In this document: positions 1,339-54,386 of the stretch, piece by piece | How positions within the stretch are numbered: position 1 is the stretch's first letter | Layout of the letters: each line of letters opens with the position of its first letter | Assembly (NCBI GenBank): GCA_003249955.1 | Contig: QKHS01000080.1 | Coordinates: 1 to 64,000, forward strand | Source of the DNA: Bacteroidales bacterium | Lineage (GTDB): Bacteria > Bacteroidota > Bacteroidia > Bacteroidales > ML635J-15 | Direction of reading: 5' to 3' | DNA: 64,000 bases | Translations under genes and position numbers: made by a program | The notes under the pieces: model-generated | The model's database searches: none | The model's input: only the letters and a program-made list of their open reading frames with translations | Told to the model about the DNA's origin: nothing

Positions 1339-4300
1339 CTACTCCTCCACAAACCTGATTACCGAAATTCTTTTTTTTCCGTCCATTACAACATTAACAG
1401 GCTTTACAAACTCAACATGCCGTGCAAACTTGAGCGATTCCGAAACTTTTTGTTCCCTGATTACATCCCACTTTATAAAATCGTTGCTACCACTATGCTG
1501 AACAGTAAAATAGCCAACATTCATGGACGTTACATTATGAAAAAAATGTGAGCCCAGTGATGCATCAAGCGGAAAATCTTTAAGACTGGTTTCAACAATA
1601 ATTTTAGCATTGCATATCTGTGGCCATACAACAGGAATACCAATAAACGGATCTCTCGTTCCCCACCGCCCCGGACCAATCAGGATATATTTTCTGCCAA
1701 GTTTCATCATTTTCTCATTAAGATACTCTACTTCCCTTGCAATTTCAATAGTTTTACAATTGTCAAATACCTCAGGGTCAATATATATCATATCTGTTAT
1801 ATTTTCGACAGTCCCGTTACCCATACTGCGTTCCGAATACAGCAATATTTCAGGAAAATCAAGAGATTCCACATCAATATTATAATCGTCATCGTTACCT
1901 ACAAGAGGTTTTATCTGTAAAAGATAAAACGATGCTTTTGAGTCTTTATCTTTATTAAGGTCAACAGCATATTCTATTTCGACAGGAGACCCCATTGCTT
2001 CACGGATAATATCAAGAACCTTTGTAATCGTTTCGGCCAAAGGAATGTAGTTATACTTTAATATATTTGCAAAATTTATAACTATCGGGCCGTAAGTATC
2101 GAGACCCGGAACAATTCTTTCATTATCAAAGTCATAAACCGATGCGCAATGCTTTATTGTACCATGTTCTTTTGCTGCAGAAATATCCATACGAACCAAC
2201 CCGGCATCTTCGCCTTCGATAAGATTAATTTTCTGCTTTTTAAGATTTACTGCAAAAAACTCGACCTGAGAGGTTTTATAAATATCTTTCTGTGAATTAA
2301 TTTCTATAGTAGGATATTTCGGAGAAAAACGGAATGTACGTTCCCCTTCAACAACATAGGTACCAAGACCCACTGCAAGCACGGCAAATCCTTCGTCAGG
2401 TTTCATGTGTGATACCGGATAATAATTGTGAGATTGTGCCGTACCACTGATATGCGGATAGAAGCATTCATCGTATTTATTCCCCACAACCTCCTGAATT
2501 ACTATTGCCATTTTCTCCTCTTCAATTTTATAATTTACAGCCTCAAAGTAAGTTCGGGCAGCATTAGAATATATTGATGCATAAACCAGTTTTATTGCAG
2601 TAGTTACCTGTTCGAGCCTTACCACAATATCCTCATCATTATTAGGAAGTAAATAAGTGGCAAAAATACCTGAGAACGGTTGCATCAGAGAATCCTCGAA
2701 CAAACTGGAAGATCTTATGGCAACAGGTTTTTTAATATGCTGAAGCAGAATTTTCAGTTTTCTTTTCAGGCCGGAAGACAACTCCGATTTAACAAATATT
2801 TCTTTCAAAGCATCATAATCCTTTTGCTCAATTGTTATTTCTCTGAGTTTATTCCTTTCTATAAAATAGTCGAACTCATCTGTACCTATAATCGATGTCT
2901 TAGGAGTTGTAATATTAATTTCCGGAAACATTTTTGATAATTCAAACTGGTGTATGAGAGTGTTTATAAATGCAATCCCTCTGCCTTTTCCGCCGAGAGC
3001 ACCTGTTCCCAGACTGACAATATTTTTTTCATCTTCTATTGCCGGTTCTTCAAAAGGTACAACTTTGCCCTTGTTTTGTTCATTGCGGTGTTTATTTATT
3101 GTTTTTATAAGAAATTGTCTCAATTCCTCAACCGTTTTAAAATCCTGTGTTTTATAAGAACTGATATTCTTTGCAATCTGTATTTCGCCACGAGCCATCA
3201 GCCAAAGAGAAAAATGGTTTCTTTGTCCGTGATACAGTAATGATTCTTCCGGAATAGCTTCAAGATTCTTTTCAAACTCTTTTAATGTTTTTGCAATTAC
3301 AAGCTGCCGTCCGCTCTGGTCACGATAAACAAAGTTGCCAAAGCCAAGGTAATGGCGGATAAAACTTTTTATGTCATGTGAAAGTGTCTCCGAATTTTTA
3401 TTAATAAAGCTGGCGTTAAGCTTATATGCTTTTCTGGCATTTTCCGATTCTGAAGATTGCAAAACAATAGGTAAATCGGGATAATCTTTTTTAATATATG
3501 ATATCAGTTGAATTCCTGCATCACCGCAGCAATCCCCGGCCATAGGATAACTTACATCTGAAATCACACATAAAAGATATTCCCGGTATTTTTCATAAAC
3601 AGCTATTGCTTCTTCGTATGTTCTGGCAAGCAGAATTTTAGGGCGTGCCCGAGATTTAAGAACTTTGTACAATTCATCAACATTTGTCTCTTCTATCAAA
3701 TCTTTTGTCTGTTCAAGAATTACCTGATACAACAAAGGTAAATACCGGGAATAATATTTTGAAGAGTCTTCAACTAATAAAATAACACGAACCATCCCCA
3801 CATTAGTATCATTCTCCACATTAACCTTATCTTCCAGGTGCTTAAGCATTGTGAAAAAGATCTTGGAATCGCCGTTCCACACAAACTGTTTGTCTATATT
3901 GCTCAATAACGAAGGCTTTTCTTCAAAAACAGCAATGTCTGTATTATTATTAAGCAGCATAAAAACAGGAATATATGGAAACAAACTTTTAATCTGACGA
4001 CTTAATTCAATCGGATTTTTCTTGTCTATACCCATCATAAGTATAACCAGATCGTAATGCTTGTTTTTTAAATGATCAATTGCATCAGCATTGTCAGAAA
4101 CCCCGGTAATACGAGGTGTTGAAGTAAGATTCAAGCGATAATATTCTCCCAGAATATATTCCGAAAAGCGCCCCTCTTTCTCAATAATATAAGCATCGTA
4201 AAGATTGGCTACCAACAAAATCTCTTTTACCTTAAAAGGCATCAGATCATGATATACGTCCCTGTCGGAATTATGCCGGTTAATAAACCGGGACATAAGC

Positions 4301-45113: not shown

Positions 45114-46457
<1,344 letters not shown>

Positions 46458-46471
46458 TCTTTTTATTTTTC

Positions 46472-46498
46472 AAAAGTCCCGCCTTTCGCGGGACTTTT
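46472..46498 (+). terminator. Terminator after gdhA
   Basis: Perfect 11-bp stem AAAAGTCCCGC / GCGGGACTTTT with loop CTTTC, flanked by T-rich sequence. Confidence 0.92.
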
Positions 46499-46576: not shown

Positions 46577-47095
46577 ATGCGAATTAATCGAATTCTTCAG
46601 GAGAAAACACGTGCAGAGCAAAGCGAAATTGATTTGTCTCTTCTTGATTCAGTTATAGAAAAATCCCGCGGAAAAAAAGGAAATGTAATTCCGCTGTTGC
46701 AAGCTGCTCAGGCTTTTTACGGGTATTTGCCCGATGTAGTTTTTGAAAGACTTGAGCACGAATTAGGCATAAGTAAAAGCCAAATGTATGGTGTTGCCAC
46801 TTTTTATTCACAATTCCGGTTGTCTCCTGTTGGCAAGCATATCATTAAGGTTTGTCACGGAACAGCATGTCACGTGCAAAATGCAACCGAACTTTCCGAA
46901 TATCTTTCCGAAGCTTTAAACGTCAACGATGGTGAGACCACCGAAGACAGAATGTTTACCCTGGAATCCGTTGCCTGTCTGGGATGCTGCTCTTTAGCTC
47001 CGGTAATTATGATAGGTGACGAAGTATTCGGCAAACTGGACGGCAATGCTGCTGTCAAAATTATTAATGAAATTAAACTTAAAGAAAAACAATAA
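46577..47095 (+). CDS. NuoE/HydC-like thioredoxin-fold [2Fe-2S] subunit
   Basis: 172 residues. Helical N-terminal part, then the thioredoxin-like 2Fe-2S domain. The four ligands are Cys93 and Cys98 (VCHGTACHV, C-x4-C) and Cys134 and Cys138 (ACLGCCSLAP, C-x3-C). This is the NuoE/HndA/HydC subunit that passes electrons to or from the NuoF-like flavoprotein. It is the first gene of a three-gene operon, four bases from the NuoF-like gene. Genes for complex I membrane subunits are absent, so it belongs to a soluble complex. In HydABC-type bifurcating enzymes this subunit is essential to the core. Confidence 0.93.
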   Translation: MRINRILQEKTRAEQSEIDLSLLDSVIEKSRGKKGNVIPLLQAAQAFYGYLPDVVFERLEHELGISKSQMYGVATFYSQFRLSPVGKHIIKVCHGTACHVQNATELSEYLSEALNVNDGETTEDRMFTLESVACLGCCSLAPVIMIGDEVFGKLDGNAAVKIINEIKLKEKQ

Positions 47096-47099
47096 CATA

Positions 47100-48878
47100 A
47101 TGAGCAGAACTCAGGTTATAGTCGGTTTGGGCAGTTGTGGAATTGCCGCCGGTGCATCAAAAGTTTATAACAAATTATCAGCTTTAAAAGAAGCCGAAAA
47201 TCTGGACTTTATTCTTAAAAAGACCAGTTGCGTCGGAATGTGCTATAAAGAACCGCTTGTAGAAGTAATTGACGAAAACGGATCTTTTTTGTACGGAGAA
47301 ATTAACGAAGATAAAGCTGTTGAAATTATTCAGGAGCACATTATTAATCAAAACCCTATAAAGGACTACGTTGTAAAAAGCGAAATGTTCGGAACCGGTG
47401 AAGAAGATTTCTTTGATTCTCAGGTAAAAATTGCTTTACGGAATTGCGGAGTAATTGAACCGGAAGATATAAACGACTATTTGCAAAAAGACGGATACGC
47501 CGCTCTTAAAAAAATTGCCAGCGAAGGAGTAAGCCGCGAACAGGTAATTCAGATAGTTAAAGACTCCGGACTCAGAGGTCGTGGAGGAGGAGGATTCCCC
47601 ACAGGCATGAAATGGAAATTTGCCTATAACTATCCTTCCGACGAAAAATATATTATCTGTAATGCCGACGAAGGTGATCCCGGAGCATTTATGGACAGAT
47701 CTTTATTAGAAGGGGATCCTCATGCCGTGCTGGAAGGTATGATTATCGGAGCCTATGCAATCGGGGCAAATCATGGTATAATTTATTGCCGTGCCGAATA
47801 TCCTCTTGCTATTAAACGACTTAACATTGCAATTAAACAAGCTCATGAAAGAGGTTTCCTCGGAAAAGATGTTTGCGGAATAAACGGTTTTGATATTGAT
47901 ATATACGTAAAAGAAGGTGCCGGAGCATTTGTTTGCGGAGAAGAAACAGCGCTTATGGCTTCTATTGAAGGCCATAGGGGAATGCCTCGTAAGCGTCCTC
48001 CTTTTCCTGCAGAGGCAGGATTATGGAGAAAACCTTCAAATGTTAACAATGTCGAAACTTTTGCAAACATACCATGGATAATTTTCCACGGAGCCGAAGA
48101 ATATTCAAAATACGGAACAAAAAATTCCGGAGGGACAAAAGTTTTTGCCCTTACCGGTAAAATCAACCGGGGAGGTCTGGTAGAAGTTCCATTGGGAATA
48201 ACTATAAACGAAATAATTTTTAAACTGGGTGGCGGCATACAAAAAGGAAAGAAATTTAAAGCGGTACAGCTTGGAGGACCTTCCGGCGGTTGCGTTCCGG
48301 CCTATCTTGGCGACACTATTATTGATTACGACTCTGTCCGTTCTACAGGAGCAATCATGGGATCGGGTGGTATGGTTGTAATGGACGAAACAACATGTAT
48401 GGTTGATATGGCTAAATTCTTCCTCGATTTTACTGCTAAGGAATCATGTGGTAAATGTACTTTCTGCCGTATCGGGACTAAAAGAATGCTCGAAATACTT
48501 ACCAGAATAACAGAAGGTGAAGGAAAAGAAGGCGATATCGAAAAACTGGAAGAATTATCACACCAGATTATTGATAATTCACTTTGCGGTCTTGGACAAA
48601 CTGCTCCAAATCCTGTTCTTACGACAATCCGCTATTTCAGGGATGAATACGAAGCACACATACGTGATAAAAAATGCCCGGCTAAAAAATGCCGTCCGTT
48701 GCTTACTTATACGATTGATGCCGAAAAATGTACAGGATGTACTGTTTGTGCAAAAAAATGTCCGACTGAAGCAATTACAGGCGAACGTAAAATGGTTCAT
48801 CTTATTAATCAGGACAAGTGTATCAAATGTGGTGTTTGTTTCTCAAAATGTAAGTTTGAGGCAATCAGTCTAACTTAA
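47100..48878 (+). CDS. NuoF/HydB-like NAD(H)-, FMN- and Fe-S-binding subunit
   Basis: 592 residues from the ATG at 47100, four bases after the NuoE-like stop; a longer frame from 47016 would overlap that gene and is unlikely. Order: N-terminal thioredoxin-like 2Fe-2S domain (GSCGIAAGA, with Cys13, Cys44, Cys48 in SCVGMC); the NuoF core with FMN/NAD loops (RGRGGGGFPTGMKW, NADEGDPGAFMDR, CGEETALMASIEG); the 4Fe-4S site SCGKCTFCRIGT with a later Cys in SLCGLGQTAPNP; and a C-terminal two-cluster ferredoxin (CTGCTVCAKKCP, CIKCGVCFSKCK). This build is that of HydB/HndC rather than complex I NuoF, which lacks both end domains. It would be the flavin subunit and probable bifurcation or NAD(H) site. 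Confidence 0.93.
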   Translation: MSRTQVIVGLGSCGIAAGASKVYNKLSALKEAENLDFILKKTSCVGMCYKEPLVEVIDENGSFLYGEINEDKAVEIIQEHIINQNPIKDYVVKSEMFGTGEEDFFDSQVKIALRNCGVIEPEDINDYLQKDGYAALKKIASEGVSREQVIQIVKDSGLRGRGGGGFPTGMKWKFAYNYPSDEKYIICNADEGDPGAFMDRSLLEGDPHAVLEGMIIGAYAIGANHGIIYCRAEYPLAIKRLNIAIKQAHERGFLGKDVCGINGFDIDIYVKEGAGAFVCGEETALMASIEGHRGMPRKRPPFPAEAGLWRKPSNVNNVETFANIPWIIFHGAEEYSKYGTKNSGGTKVFALTGKINRGGLVEVPLGITINEIIFKLGGGIQKGKKFKAVQLGGPSGGCVPAYLGDTIIDYDSVRSTGAIMGSGGMVVMDETTCMVDMAKFFLDFTAKESCGKCTFCRIGTKRMLEILTRITEGEGKEGDIEKLEELSHQIIDNSLCGLGQTAPNPVLTTIRYFRDEYEAHIRDKKCPAKKCRPLLTYTIDAEKCTGCTVCAKKCPTEAITGERKMVHLINQDKCIKCGVCFSKCKFEAISLT

Positions 48879-48890
48879 AACTTTCAGACA

Positions 48891-51800
48891 ATGGATAAAA
48901 TTAATATAATATTAAACGGGAAACCGGTAAAAGCTAACCCAGGTGAATATATAGTTGATGTAGCCAAACGCGAAGGAATAATTATTCCTACTTTATGCAA
49001 CGATGAAAGATTGGAACCATATTCATCCTGTTATGTTTGTGTTGTCGAAATCGAAGGTAATCCCAAACCACAGCCTTCATGTTCTACCCGGATAGCAGAA
49101 GGAATGGTAATTAATACCGAAAGCGAAAAAGTTGTAAAAGCAAGACAAACGGCAATGAACCTGCTTATGAGTAATCATTATGCCGATTGCGTTGCCCCTT
49201 GTAAAGAAACCTGCCCTGCCGGTGTTGATGTGCAGGGATATATTTCTCTTATTGAAAAAGGATTATACAGTGAAGCCGTTGCATTAATAAAACAGGTTAA
49301 CCCGCTGCCTGCAATTTGCGGACGTGTTTGTGTAAGGCCATGCGAAGCTGCCTGCCGCCGTAACTTACTTGACGAAAAAGCCGGTGTCGGAATTGATTAT
49401 ATGAAACGTTTTGCTGCTGATTATGACCTTAATTCTGCAAATAAGTTCATACCCGAAAAAGCACCTTCGACAGGGAAAAAAGTTGCTATAATCGGTGCCG
49501 GACCCGGAGGATTGTCAGCAGCTTATTATCTGCAACTAAAAGGTCATCAGTGTGATATTTATGAAGCTCAGTCTCATCCGGGAGGCTGGTTAAGATACGG
49601 AATACCGGAATACAGGCTTCCAAATAACATAATTGACGCAGAAACAAAAAATATTACAGACCTTGGCGTTAATATTTTTTACAATAAAAAACTGGGCGAA
49701 AATCTGAAATATGCCGAAATACAGGAAAAATACGATGCTACGGTTCTTACAATAGGTTCGCAACGCGGTACCTTGCTGGGAGCAGAAGGCGAAGATGCCG
49801 ACGGCGTTTTTTCAGGTATAGACTTCCTGCGCAACATGGAAACTACCGGACAGAGATATGATTTCAGAGGTAAAAAAATAATTGTTGTAGGTGGCGGAAA
49901 CACAGCTATGGACTGTTGCCGTTCTTCTCTGCGTTGTAATTCAACAGATGTAAAAGTTGTTTACCGTCGTACAGAAAAAGAAATGCCTGCAAACCCTATA
50001 GAAATTCACGAATCCAAACTGGAAGGAGTTGAATATTTATTTCTGCACAATCCTGTTCGCGTAAATAAAGACAGCGAAGGAAAACTGAAATCGGTAACTC
50101 TCATTAAAATGGGATTAGGCGAACCTGATGCTTCGGGCCGTCGTCGTCCCATACCAATAGAAGGATCAGAATTTGATCTGGAAGCTGACTATATCCTGGC
50201 AGCTATCGGGCAAAAAACAGATATAAACTTTTTAAATGATGTAAATTCCGTTGTAAAAGAAGGGGAATTAAAAGCAAATAAATGGGGCGATCTGGATGCA
50301 GATCCCAAAACCCTGCAAACCGGAGTTCCTTCAATTTTTGCTGCCGGCGACGGTGTTACAGGACCGGCTACACTTATTGAAGCCATTGCTCAGGCAAACA
50401 AAGCCTGGGTTAGTTGCCATCAATATCTGACAGGACAAAAAATTGAACCTTTGAAAAAAGTATTTGTCAGCCGTAAAGACAATTTCAAAAAACAGGAAAG
50501 TCCGGATTATCTTGGCAGATACCAAAAACAACTACGTCAGGAAATGCCGGTTCTTGATCCAAAAAACAGGGTAAACTACAACGAAGTAGAATTGGGCTAT
50601 CCCGATGAAAATACAGCAAAAACAGAAACATCAAGATGCTTTGAATGCGGATGCTCCGAATTTTTTGATTGCAAACTTCAGCAATACGCAGATAAATACA
50701 ATGCAGATCAAAAATTCTATGACGGAACATTCAGACAATATAATGTAGATTTTGCACACCCTTTAATTGAGATTGACAATAATAAATGTATTTTATGTGC
50801 AAAATGTATCAGGGTTTGTAATGAAATTGTAGGGGCAAAAGCTCTCGGTTTGGTAGAACGCGGATTTGAAACATTTGTGGCACCAAGCATGAATAAATTA
50901 CTTACAGAAACAGATTGTGAATCATGCGGAATGTGCGTTTCTATCTGCCCAACAGGTGCAATTACAGAAAATGTTCCGTTTAAAATAATGCCTGTAAAAG
51001 CCGATAAAATCAACACTATAGACTGTTTTGGTTCCGAAGGTGCAGCAATTGAACTTCACCATAAATCAGGATTCATTTTCAGAGCAGAAGGAACACCGGG
51101 ACTGGTAAATAAAAAAGGCAGCATTGGTAAACATGCGAAATTCGGGTACAGGGTTTTCAATGACCCGGAAAGAATTACCAAACCTATGGTTAAAGATAAC
51201 GGCAACTGGAAAGAAGTAAGTTTCGACGAAGCTTTTGCTGTAATCAAACAGAAAATCACCGGAAATGAAAAAGATACAATGGTTTTTGCCGGTGGAAGAA
51301 TGAGTAATGAAGAGCTGTTTTTGACTCAGAAATTTGTTCGTAATGTGCTTAAAACCAACAATATTGCCAGTCTGAATTATATTGGAAGAGGTGCCGGTTA
51401 TACATACGATACATTCAAAAACACATCTCTCAGCAATCTTAAAGATGCATCAAAAATTTATGTTTTTGGCTCCGATTTAAATTACGACAACAGCCTTATT
51501 AATCATATGATTTTTGGAGCAGCTCATAAAAACGGTGCTGAGGTAATCCTGATTACAGATAAAGAAAATGCAAAAATCGCGTACAAGTGTAACAAGATAA
51601 TAAAAACCGACTCTTATTATAGTTTTGTTAAGGCAATGAACAAGGCTGTTGTAGAAAACACATGGTACAACAAGTTCTTTATCGAAACTAATGTTGACGG
51701 CTTTGGCAAATATCTGAGTGATTCTTCAAAATCAGATTTTAATGCTCTTTCGGGCAGATCTGGTATAAATGCAGAAGAACTGAAATTATTTACTGAGGAT

Positions 51801-52502
51801 TTTAACAAGGAACAGAATGCAGTAATTATTTTTCAGGAAAAAGAGCTTAGTTCAGCAACCGCTCAGGAAATAATGAATCTGGTTATGCTTACCGGAAAAC
51901 TTGGTAAAACAGGAAGTGGTGTTATTGCTGTGAAAGAAAAAAATAATTCTCAGGGACTTATTGACATGGGTGTTAAGCCAACTCTTGCTACAGGAGGAAT
52001 AAAAGCGGAAGGCGAATGTCAGTGTGACAGAGTTTCAGCAGGTGATTTCTCAAACTTTATGATTTTTGGTGAAGATCCTATGGGAACAGCAAAAGATAAG
52101 GCAGAAGTTGAAAAATGGTTTGCAAAGCGCAAATTTGTAGTTGTTCAGGATTATTTTATGACAGAAACAGCAAAAATGGCAGATGTTGTTCTCCCGGCAA
52201 GTTTCAATTTTGAAACCGGAGGAAGCTTTACAAATACTCAGAAATATATACAGCAATTTGAGAAGTGCCTGAAACCCAAAACAGAACTTGACAATCTTGA
52301 GCAACTTGCCGGTATATTTAAAAAATTCGGAATTGAACAATCATCTGATTCATCTGTTATTTTTGATGAAATTTCTACAATACTTGCAAACATTCCTGAA
52401 TACAAACCGGAGTTTGTATATAGGGAAAAAGATTCTGCAACCGGAAATTTCAACCACAGTTGCGATATTTTAATTAAAAAAATTAATGATATTTTTGATT
52501 AA
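48891..52502 (+). CDS. Fusion flavoprotein: 2Fe-2S + GltD-like NADPH module + 2x4Fe-4S + degenerate molybdopterin-oxidoreductase-like domain
   Basis: 1203 residues. Residues 1-80 form a plant-type 2Fe-2S domain (Cys36, 47, 50, 64). Residues ~95-580 are a GltD/NfnL-like module: Fe-S cysteines (100, 104, 108 and 143-155), FAD loop IIGAGPGGLSAAYYL, an NADPH loop VVGGGNTAMDCC with downstream VYRRTEKEMPA, and AAGDGVTGPATLIEA. A Cys cluster at 583 (CFECGCSEFFDC) leads to two 4Fe-4S motifs (C633-C643 and C676-C686). The last ~500 residues resemble the NuoG/FdhA molybdopterin fold (PERITKPMVKDNGNWKEVSF), but the CxxCxxxC start is gone (DCFGSEGA, only Cys712) and no SeCys/Cys catalytic site is seen. 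No H-cluster is present. It closes a NuoE-NuoF operon, 12 bases after the NuoF-like stop. An NADPH-linked bifurcating transhydrogenase (Stn-like) is the best inference. Confidence 0.88.
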   Translation: MDKINIILNGKPVKANPGEYIVDVAKREGIIIPTLCNDERLEPYSSCYVCVVEIEGNPKPQPSCSTRIAEGMVINTESEKVVKARQTAMNLLMSNHYADCVAPCKETCPAGVDVQGYISLIEKGLYSEAVALIKQVNPLPAICGRVCVRPCEAACRRNLLDEKAGVGIDYMKRFAADYDLNSANKFIPEKAPSTGKKVAIIGAGPGGLSAAYYLQLKGHQCDIYEAQSHPGGWLRYGIPEYRLPNNIIDAETKNITDLGVNIFYNKKLGENLKYAEIQEKYDATVLTIGSQRGTLLGAEGEDADGVFSGIDFLRNMETTGQRYDFRGKKIIVVGGGNTAMDCCRSSLRCNSTDVKVVYRRTEKEMPANPIEIHESKLEGVEYLFLHNPVRVNKDSEGKLKSVTLIKMGLGEPDASGRRRPIPIEGSEFDLEADYILAAIGQKTDINFLNDVNSVVKEGELKANKWGDLDADPKTLQTGVPSIFAAGDGVTGPATLIEAIAQANKAWVSCHQYLTGQKIEPLKKVFVSRKDNFKKQESPDYLGRYQKQLRQEMPVLDPKNRVNYNEVELGYPDENTAKTETSRCFECGCSEFFDCKLQQYADKYNADQKFYDGTFRQYNVDFAHPLIEIDNNKCILCAKCIRVCNEIVGAKALGLVERGFETFVAPSMNKLLTETDCESCGMCVSICPTGAITENVPFKIMPVKADKINTIDCFGSEGAAIELHHKSGFIFRAEGTPGLVNKKGSIGKHAKFGYRVFNDPERITKPMVKDNGNWKEVSFDEAFAVIKQKITGNEKDTMVFAGGRMSNEELFLTQKFVRNVLKTNNIASLNYIGRGAGYTYDTFKNTSLSNLKDASKIYVFGSDLNYDNSLINHMIFGAAHKNGAEVILITDKENAKIAYKCNKIIKTDSYYSFVKAMNKAVVENTWYNKFFIETNVDGFGKYLSDSSKSDFNALSGRSGINAEELKLFTEDFNKEQNAVIIFQEKELSSATAQEIMNLVMLTGKLGKTGSGVIAVKEKNNSQGLIDMGVKPTLATGGIKAEGECQCDRVSAGDFSNFMIFGEDPMGTAKDKAEVEKWFAKRKFVVVQDYFMTETAKMADVVLPASFNFETGGSFTNTQKYIQQFEKCLKPKTELDNLEQLAGIFKKFGIEQSSDSSVIFDEISTILANIPEYKPEFVYREKDSATGNFNHSCDILIKKINDIFD

Positions 52503-52618: not shown

Positions 52619-53077
52619 ATGAAAGAATTCACAAACACAAATGACATTTTAGATTTTGCAATTGCACGGGAACAGGGTGCTGTTGATTTTTACACCCGTT
52701 TATCATCTGACGTAAGCAATACCGAAATGAGAGATATTTTTCTTCAATTTGCAAAAGAAGAAATGGGACACAAAGCATTTCTGCAGAAAGTCAAACAGGA
52801 AGGTTCATTTGAATTGTCAGCAACAAAAATTGCTGATATCAAAATTGCCGATTACATTATTCCACAGGAAAAGGATTCTGATAAACTCACTTATCCGGAA
52901 GCTTTGGTTCTTGCCATGCGCCGGGAAAAAGCTGCTTATGATTTATATAAGAAGTTAAGTGCAACAATAGAAGATCCTGCTTACTCAACATTATTTGCAT
53001 CATTAGCTCAGGAAGAATTAAAGCATAAAAACAGATTCGAAACCGAGTATGATGATTATCTGAGCAGAGAAAACTAA
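52619..53077 (+). CDS. Rubrerythrin-like ferritin-family diiron protein
   Basis: 152 residues forming one four-helix ferritin-like bundle. The iron-ligand motifs are seen as duplicated E-x(n)-E-x-x-H: AREQGAVDFY and KEEMGHKAFL in the first half, MRREKAAYDLY and AQEELKHKNRF in the second. The rubredoxin tail of full rubrerythrin is missing. Such proteins reduce peroxide or oxygen in anaerobes or handle iron, with electrons from ferredoxin- or rubredoxin-type donors. It lies 116 bases after the bifurcating-like operon on the same strand and has its own terminator. A protective role for the Fe-S complex is plausible, but positional inference only. Confidence 0.88.
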   Translation: MKEFTNTNDILDFAIAREQGAVDFYTRLSSDVSNTEMRDIFLQFAKEEMGHKAFLQKVKQEGSFELSATKIADIKIADYIIPQEKDSDKLTYPEALVLAMRREKAAYDLYKKLSATIEDPAYSTLFASLAQEELKHKNRFETEYDDYLSREN

Positions 53078-53216: not shown

Positions 53217-54386
53217 ATGTTAAACATCGCTTTATTCGGACCTCCAGGAGCAGGAAAAGGTACCCAGTCAGAATCTCTTATAAAGGAATATAACCTGTTT
53301 TATATTTCGACAGGGGATTTACTCCGGAAAGAAATAAAAGACCAGACAAGACTCGGAAAAGAGGCTCAGAGCATTATTGCGTCAGGAGGGTTGGTTTCTG
53401 ATGAAATTATCGTTCAGATTATTGAAAAAACAATTACCGACAATCCAAATGCAAACGGGTTTTTATTTGACGGTTTTCCGAGAACTTACATACAGGCATA
53501 CATTCTCGAAGGATTAATGATTAAACTTAATACGTCTCTTAACTGCCTCATCAGTCTGGAAGTTCCGGAAGAGGAATCGGTGGCACGTTTGCTTAAAAGA
53601 GGGGAAACATCGGGACGAACTGATGATAATGAGAGAGTTATCAGAAACAGGCTTAAAGAGTACAACGACAAAACTCTGCCCGTATTAAACTTTTACAAAG
53701 ACAAAGGCCTTTATAACGAGGTTGACGGAGCACAAAGCATAGAGTCGGTACGTGAACAGATTCAGCATATTGTTAAAAACGAACTCAGCAAACGGCTTCT
53801 TAATATTGTTCTTTTCGGATACCCGGGTTCAGGACGTGGATCACAGGGCCGGGCAATTGCAAAAAAATACGGCCTCGAATATGTTGCAACAGGCCCAATG
53901 CTTGGTGAGGAAATCGCTAAAAAAAGCGAAACAGGAAAACAAATCCAGGAACTTTACAATAACGGGCAATTAATTCCTGATGAAATTGTTGTTCAGCTTA
54001 TTGAGAAAAAGCTTGAAAACTCAAAAGGCGTTAAAGGTTTTATTTTTAAAGGTTTCCCGCGTACTTTGGTTCAGTCTTACATTCTCGACGGACTTCTGAA
54101 AAAACATGGCTCATCGCTGTCTAAAATCATCGAAATAGAAGTCCCGACTTTAGAACTAATAAAGAGACTTGATGAAAGAAGTAAAACCGAAGAATGCATG
54201 CCTTATGATTCAAGCACGGCAAAAATTGTTCAGAGACTTCAGGATCACGAAAATAAAACTGTCCCTGTAATCGAAAAATACAACGAACTTCATGGCGTTG
54301 TAAAAATAAGCGGTATGGGGAGCTTTGAAGAAGTTTTTGAAAGAATAAGTTTTGAAATAGAAAACGGATTCAAAAACCTGAAATAA
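53217..54386 (+). CDS. adk: Tandem adenylate kinase with degenerate second domain
   Basis: 389 residues, twice the normal adenylate kinase length. The first half (1-~190) is complete: P-loop GPPGAGKGTQ (Lys14), STGDLLRKEI, DGFPRT, and a short LID with RGETSGRTDDNERVIRNRL. The second half (~193-389) repeats the fold (LLNIVLFGYPGSGRGSQ; GFPRTLVQ retained), but the P-loop Lys is Arg207, STGD is ATGP, and the RTDD LID motif is replaced by ECMPYDSS. The first domain should interconvert ATP+AMP and 2 ADP; the second is probably a pseudo-kinase. This gene may be the organism's only adk or a second copy; that cannot be told here. It is a single gene between two terminated units. Confidence 0.9.
   Translation: MLNIALFGPPGAGKGTQSESLIKEYNLFYISTGDLLRKEIKDQTRLGKEAQSIIASGGLVSDEIIVQIIEKTITDNPNANGFLFDGFPRTYIQAYILEGLMIKLNTSLNCLISLEVPEEESVARLLKRGETSGRTDDNERVIRNRLKEYNDKTLPVLNFYKDKGLYNEVDGAQSIESVREQIQHIVKNELSKRLLNIVLFGYPGSGRGSQGRAIAKKYGLEYVATGPMLGEEIAKKSETGKQIQELYNNGQLIPDEIVVQLIEKKLENSKGVKGFIFKGFPRTLVQSYILDGLLKKHGSSLSKIIEIEVPTLELIKRLDERSKTEECMPYDSSTAKIVQRLQDHENKTVPVIEKYNELHGVVKISGMGSFEEVFERISFEIENGFKNLK

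Follow-up and report, generated by a model that had tools for sequence, protein, structure and literature searches.

A probable Stn-type electron-bifurcating transhydrogenase of a Bacteroidales bacterium, with a lost StnC cluster and a rubrerythrin-like neighbour

Introduction

Which enzyme is encoded by three adjoining genes of a Bacteroidales bacterium that specify a NuoE-like, a NuoF-like and a NuoG/GltD-like protein, and which electron carriers does it couple? The genes span positions 46577-52502 of a stretch of 64,000 nucleotides (nt), hereafter the window, that comprises positions 1-64,000 of the forward strand of contig QKHS01000080.1 (assembly GCA_003249955.1; Bacteroidales bacterium, ML635J-15). 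The host is probably an anaerobe of the order Bacteroidales. Judged by sequence comparison, the three genes very probably encode an electron-bifurcating transhydrogenase of the Stn type, also known as Nfn-Bfu or NfnABC, and we call them stnA, stnB and stnC. The kind of enzyme and its coupled reaction have been described before (PMC10482914, PMC9304861 and the discovery paper PMC7483475). As Nfn-Bfu has also been reported from Bacteroidetes (PMC9304861), the kind is a known one: the identity given in the preliminary description, a bifurcating enzyme in a Bacteroidota, holds, but its occurrence in this phylum is not new. New here are the loss of cluster C1 of StnC as a set, a rubrerythrin-like gene (Rub) after stnC, and one fusion of Rub with the C-terminal half of StnC.

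The three genes encode the subunits of a Stn-type complex

The genes stnA (46577..47095), stnB (47100..48878) and stnC (48891..52502) are intact open reading frames (ORFs) on the + strand, with gaps of 4 nt between stnA and stnB and 12 nt between stnB and stnC. The longest ORF for stnB has a GTG start at 47016 and overlaps stnA; we count its 592 residues from the ATG at 47100. For each of the three subunits, the best matches in the PDB were Stn or NfnABC complexes (8oh5, 9bov and 9n5u). The preliminary description of tightly packed genes for a NuoE-like protein, a HydB-type NuoF and a 1203-residue GltD fusion was therefore confirmed at the level of families, and its proposal of a Stn-like NADPH:NAD+:ferredoxin bifurcating complex gains support from these matches, from the core His and Cys ligands and from the predicted flavin adenine dinucleotide (FAD)/NADPH domain.

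StnA is a NuoE/HydC-like protein of 172 residues (PF01257; best PDB matches 9bov_C, 8oh5_A and 9n5u_C) with one [2Fe-2S] cluster, the ligands of which, Cys93, Cys98, Cys134 and Cys138, were invariant in 114 alignment rows. StnB, the HydB-type NuoF, consists of PF01512, PF10589 and two Fer4 domains. It has a flavin mononucleotide (FMN)/NAD site, the [4Fe-4S] cluster B1, the unusual [2Fe-2S] cluster B2 and a C-terminal ferredoxin domain with two [4Fe-4S] clusters. The phmmer matches of StnB in the PDB were 9n5u_B (859.7 bits), 8oh5_B (853.9 bits) and 9bov_B (845.7 bits). The B2 ligands in the window are C433, T471, H520, C526 and C531, as mapped by eye through an alignment with 7t2r_B and the residues named in PMC9304861. 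C433, H520, C526, C531 and the eight C-terminal Cys were kept in 118/118 rows, and position 471 was the only variable core ligand (T in 103 rows, C in 10 and other residues in 5).

StnC, the NuoG/GltD fusion of 1203 residues, matched PF13510, PF14691, PF07992, a Fer4 dicluster family and PF00384. Its phmmer scores were 736 bits for 9bov_A (aligned over residues 4-1180), 722 for 8oh5_C and 584 for 9n5u_A. The E-values for StnC and StnB, 1e-215 or lower, exclude chance similarity. In a Foldseek search with an AlphaFold model of StnC, the top matches were again 9bov (34% identity), 8oh5 and 9n5u. The model was built from 24 alignment rows and has a mean predicted local distance difference test (pLDDT) of 74, falling below 50 at residues 612-702, and a predicted template modelling score (pTM) of 0.47; it is too poor in the Fe-S regions for cluster distances, and so was used for Foldseek ranking only. 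Comparison of the third subunit with candidate families, as had been suggested, showed the nearest solved proteins to be the large subunits of Stn and NfnABC. NfnL (5jca_L) aligned to residues 101-517, corresponding to the GltD/NfnB-like FAD and NADPH domain (residues 98-517, 49182..50441; PF14691, PF07992).

The GltD domain is inserted within the NuoG His-Cys cluster motif. StnC has ligands for six clusters, assigned from motif layout: one [2Fe-2S], one His-ligated [4Fe-4S], two in the GltD part, of which one would be held by three Cys and Lys172, and two (C3 and C2) in a two-[4Fe-4S] domain at residues 633-686 (50787..50948). The preliminary description, which listed one 2Fe-2S and two 4Fe-4S clusters, gave too low a count. 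Across 129 StnC rows, assembled without L162 (which shares its genome with L172) and without rows shorter than 1000 residues, the six-cluster ligands, His96 and Lys172 included, were intact in 3095/3096 cells; the single exception lies in the dicluster domain of L256. Another alignment, divided into near and far rows, was made without StnC ORFs below 850 residues and without 20 short PRK12814-like proteins (L022-L041). Lys172, which corresponds to K170 of Sporomusa ovata StnC, was kept in every row with data (73 near, 25 far), and Arg242, the counterpart of S. ovata R239, was invariant in rows with data. Loss of FAD/NADPH residues, which had been named as a reason to reject the assignment, was not found, the domain and both of these residues being conserved.

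The C-terminal part of StnC (residues 705-1203, 51003..52499) resembles a degenerate formate dehydrogenase. Despite a match to PF00384, StnC did not match PF04879 or PF01568, both of which matched the genuine formate dehydrogenase of the host. The H-cluster domain PF02906 was likewise unmatched in the three window proteins, and the host's hydrogenase matched it. The earlier statement that the proteins have neither an H-cluster nor a working Mo/W site agrees with these domain searches, in which nothing pointed to a functional Mo/W centre in StnC, and we take the formate-dehydrogenase-like domain as a structural remnant.

Comparison with solved complexes and proposed reaction

The window has the following features of the Stn family: a BfuB subunit with an FMN domain, B1, B2 with its His ligand and a C-terminal two-[4Fe-4S] domain; a NuoE-like subunit with a [2Fe-2S] cluster; and a GltD FAD/NADPH domain, with the Lys ligand, in a NuoG frame. 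With StnABC of S. ovata (8oh5; PMC10482914) the window proteins share the three subunits, the domain order of StnC, the core ligands and the Lys and Arg near the FAD; they differ in having no C1 and Val in place of Cys114. The Rub gene after stnC is a feature of the window, the comparison with S. ovata covering proteins rather than gene flanks. NfnABC of Caldicellulosiruptor saccharolyticus (9bov), compared by sequence and entry title, matches StnC over nearly its full length and is among the top matches for all subunits, but keeps the C1 Cys that the window has lost. NfnABC of Thermococcus sibiricus (9n5u; Nfn-Bfu, PMC9304861) shares the set of modules and is the best match of StnB. Its 963-residue large subunit is, by sequence alignment and PMC10482914, the mirror image of the window StnC, lacking C2 and keeping C1. 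The large subunit of S. ovata has seven Fe-S clusters and that of the window six; we do not take the count of seven to define the family, because T. sibiricus NfnABC lacks C2. The overall reaction of NfnAB is alike and its GltD domain homologous, but NfnAB bifurcates at another site and has no StnAB core.

In Stn-type complexes, the FMN core in StnAB is the site of bifurcation, and the FAD of the GltD part does not bifurcate but only feeds electrons (PMC10482914, PMC9304861). By analogy with the solved homologues, NADPH would pass its electrons to the GltD-bound FAD of StnC. At the StnAB core, one electron pair would leave as a hydride to NAD+, and the other would pass through [2Fe-2S] clusters to the C-terminal ferredoxin-like domain of StnB and on to ferredoxin. 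The reaction would be reversible, and in a fermenting cell would mostly run from NADH and reduced ferredoxin to NADPH.

Stn and NfnAB largely alternate between genomes

The genome of the host, 4.7 Mb in 101 contigs, encodes RnfC, a HydABC-type hydrogenase (HydA and HydB of the bifurcating type, encoded on a single contig), further FeFe-hydrogenase-like proteins and a formate dehydrogenase. No NfnAB pair, defined as NfnA (PF10418/FNR) beside NfnB, was found in this genome: its sole PF10418 match was PyrK-like and lay beside an ORF read as PyrD, NF009414 gave no match at E 1e-150, and the PntB family remained below its cut-off. Stn thus appears to stand in for NfnAB in the host. An origin of the window contig by contamination was ruled out, as RecG, encoded beside stn, was 66-85% identical to RecG of same-genus genomes (74-85% in 11/24) and 52-60% identical to that of most genomes of other families in the order.

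Within the genus, 7 of 26 genomes carried Stn, 18 had a NfnAB match, none had both and one had neither (hypergeometric 1.2e-5, uncorrected for kinship). The alternation persisted among the 11 genomes with RecG at least 74% identical (six Stn, four NfnAB, one neither). The matches in G788, G797 and G798 covered NfnB only, with nfnA beside nfnB in each; adjacency was checked for four genus members. The match in G799 was a fragment (positions 1-407 of 752). At the level of the order, 130 of 393 sampled genomes carried Stn. A NF009414 match was present in 118 genomes, of which 18 had partial matches and were left out, none of them with Stn; the 100 nearly full matches that entered the comparison comprised 86 of normal length and 14 longer ones. 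Three of the 86 genomes with normal-length NfnAB also carried Stn, against 28 expected (Fisher 2e-13, again uncorrected for kinship), and the distribution of the two systems in the order is largely complementary. Stn is therefore carried by roughly one in three of the genomes sampled from the order, and its alternation with NfnAB within a genus is natural evidence that both do the same job.

Several loci bear on the history of this distribution. In G788 (L296), nfnAB is found close to recG on the flank that gdhA-stnABC occupies in the window, a possible replacement in place. Two genus members carry a Stn that is 56-57% identical to that of the window (L172, L173) rather than the 74-77% kind (76-77% in L159-L161), and two versions in one genus suggest horizontal transfer. 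A nfnB-like gene was found in 18/131 stn loci; at L168, L169, L170 and L171, stnABC is adjoined by genes for a zinc-ribbon protein, for NfnA and for a NfnB that carries a zinc-ribbon-like extension at its N-terminus.

Cluster C1 of StnC has been lost as a set

At the seventh cluster site of StnC, C1, all four Cys are replaced in the window (residues 711, 714, 718 and 746; 51021..51128). The full quartet was kept in 103 of the 129 rows from the order and genus; 25, including the window, kept none and one kept three. A first near set of 74 rows, which partly overlaps with these, gave 50, 23 and one partial, and all 26 far rows kept the Cys. The C1 Cys are therefore lost as a set, in a nearly all-or-none manner. 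Trees of StnC, from which L103, L105, L112, L130 and L136 were left out, required eight changes for the whole protein and for the N-part, and four for the C-part; approximately unbiased (AU) tests of the number of origins rejected neither of the groupings tried. These natural losses are of interest because Cys-to-Ala exchanges at C1 or C2 of S. ovata StnC abolished tetramer formation (PMC10482914).

Do the genes encode a bifurcating enzyme?

Several observations weigh against a working Stn-type transhydrogenase. C1 is naturally missing here though needed for the tetramer in S. ovata, so that either the complex must assemble in another way or its function may be compromised. In place of S. ovata Cys114, mutation of which halves activity, Val is found in the window StnC and in 71 of the 72 near rows with data. 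The N-terminal [2Fe-2S] site of StnB has three Cys (13, 44 and 48), compared with four in 7t2r_B and other HydB proteins. This cluster, B5 of BfuB, is counted for the Nfn-Bfu family in PMC9304861; StnB is listed with a single [2Fe-2S] in PMC10482914, and StnB of S. ovata (8oh5_B), a founding member of the family, likewise has three N-terminal Cys. Finally, the exclusion is not universal: of the 14 genomes in which the NfnAB match is longer, 13 carry Stn as well, and frequently the two share a contig. The four longer matches that were inspected consist of a gene for NfnA and one for a NfnB with a zinc-ribbon-like extension, next to stnABC and a zinc-ribbon protein gene.

The losses of C1 and Cys114 could be read as signs of a simple NADPH:NAD+ or NADPH:ferredoxin oxidoreductase that retains the core as a relic. 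We consider this very improbable: the B2 His and the B3/B4 Cys were kept in every one of the StnB rows, and non-bifurcating homologues are reported to lack them (PMC9304861). The reciprocal distribution of Stn and NfnAB also speaks against it. Use of the StnABC module by a catalytic formate dehydrogenase or hydrogenase seems barely conceivable. Such enzymes are encoded elsewhere in the host genome, but they adjoin their own NuoF-type genes on other contigs, and the interval from gdhA to the adenylate-kinase-like gene, which encloses stnABC, holds no gene of this sort. Gene context largely refutes this idea, a partner in the operon having also been proposed beforehand as an observation that would count against the assignment. 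A bifurcating transhydrogenase of the Stn type is accordingly the identification that we retain.

A rubrerythrin-like gene is a recurrent neighbour of stnC

The Rub gene (52619..53077, + strand; 152 residues, PF02915 at 59 bits) begins 116 nt after stnC, with no + strand terminator-like site between them, and is possibly co-transcribed with stnABC. Rub matched ferritin-like families only and has no rubredoxin domain. Its residues E18, E48, H51, E103, E133 and H136, putative iron ligands, were invariant in 47/47 sequences. With only four PF02915 matches in the host genome, adjacency to stn by chance should be rare.

Flanks were surveyed in 124 of the 130 Stn genomes of the order, the window and five genus members (G784, G791, G793, G796 and G801), without G440, G489, G520, G582 and G731. 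Rub lay less than 1 kb after stnC on the same strand in 61/115 loci, the genome shared by L162 and L172 being counted once. In 57 of these there was no zinc-ribbon-like ORF in between, and in 49 the gap was below 100 nt; the count rises to 65/115 if an inserted nfn block or a fusion is allowed. In the first locus set, which partly overlaps, Rub was within 700 nt in 41/62. In loci L116-L132, on the Ignavibacteria side, none was seen next to stn, and the fetched stretch of 50/115 loci had none either. At L174 of genome G499 (1425-3698, minus strand), an intact ORF of 757 residues encodes a rubrerythrin domain fused with the dicluster/FdhF-like half of StnC; this fusion sits within a stn-nfn gene cluster and is the only one among 131 loci. 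A predicted system, Rub-Bfu type 4 (PMC9304861), also has a rubrerythrin gene beside a Bfu core, as in the window, but is without BfuA, whereas the window has a full StnC. A limited literature search found no paper on a stn-rubrerythrin operon.

Rub was commoner in loci that keep C1 (57/92) than in those that lack it (7/22; Fisher p 0.016). Phylogenetically independent pairs gave 3.8 in the same direction, 0.1 in the opposite direction and 2.1 without difference, which was not significant (median p 0.125). The window is an exception to the trend, having Rub but no C1, whereas its relative Perlabentimonas gracilis strain M08_MB (L073) has both.

What does Rub do beside Stn? More likely than not, in our view, it shields the complex, which is oxygen-sensitive, or the cell as a whole, acting as a free peroxidase or in iron handling, served by other donors and co-regulated with stn; this is compatible with a Stn-type transhydrogenase. 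A precedent is ferriperoxin of Hydrogenobacter, a rubredoxin-less rubrerythrin-like, NADPH/FNR-dependent peroxidase (PMC3317640), and the 50/115 stn loci without a Rub speak for this explanation too, but the fusion with the C-terminal half of StnC is left unexplained. That fusion, the frequent linkage, the invariant putative diiron ligands and the C1 trend would fit a fourth partner: Rub would bind beside the formate-dehydrogenase-like branch of StnC and take up electrons from it, making Stn a peroxide reductase driven by NAD(P)H and ferredoxin besides a transhydrogenase. NF009413, a family with GltD and ferritin domains, likewise gave a strong match to StnC and a weak one (23 bits) to Rub, neither of which reached its cut-off. 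We nevertheless consider a fourth partner unlikely: the fusion is a single case, Rub was not seen in the Ignavibacteria-side loci or in the fetched stretch of many others, the independent-pair test was not significant, the window itself has Rub without C1, and C1 and C2 lie off the main electron path in S. ovata.

A link between the formate-dehydrogenase-like domain of StnC and peroxide reduction is no more than possible. Carried further, and at slightly longer odds still, we speculate that the C2/C1 branch of Bacteroidales StnC could be a live exit to Rub that couples the NADPH, NADH and ferredoxin pools to peroxide removal, with lineages that loosen the tie losing C1. Repeated loss of C1 and a linked diiron gene make a role of the StnC side branch testable.

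Other genes around the locus

Upstream of stnA lies gdhA (45126..46457, + strand), which encodes a NADP-specific glutamate dehydrogenase (NF006929, 768.5 bits). The preliminary description had seen a functional fit between this enzyme and Stn, a claim that proved weak. A terminator-like hairpin (46472..46498, + strand; 11-pair stem with 6 GC pairs, then a T run) stands between the two genes, a consensus match that says nothing of function, and a glutamate dehydrogenase gene preceded stn in the same orientation in 16/97 loci (within 700 nt in 12/33 of the first locus set). On this arrangement, gdhA probably forms a transcription unit separate from stnABC, and Rub is the more conserved neighbour of stn.

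Directly after the Rub gene, positions 53217-54386 encode a tandem adenylate-kinase-like protein of 389 residues, in which two P-loop domains were recognized by eye. Elsewhere in the host genome, L002:1045-3786 encodes a 914-residue protein resembling a HdrA-GltD fusion, with matches to the HdrA2 and PRK12771 models below cut-off. L006:1495-3144 encodes a 550-residue FeFe-hydrogenase-like protein that scored 219 bits against a TIGR02512 cut-off of 406, and is perhaps non-standard.

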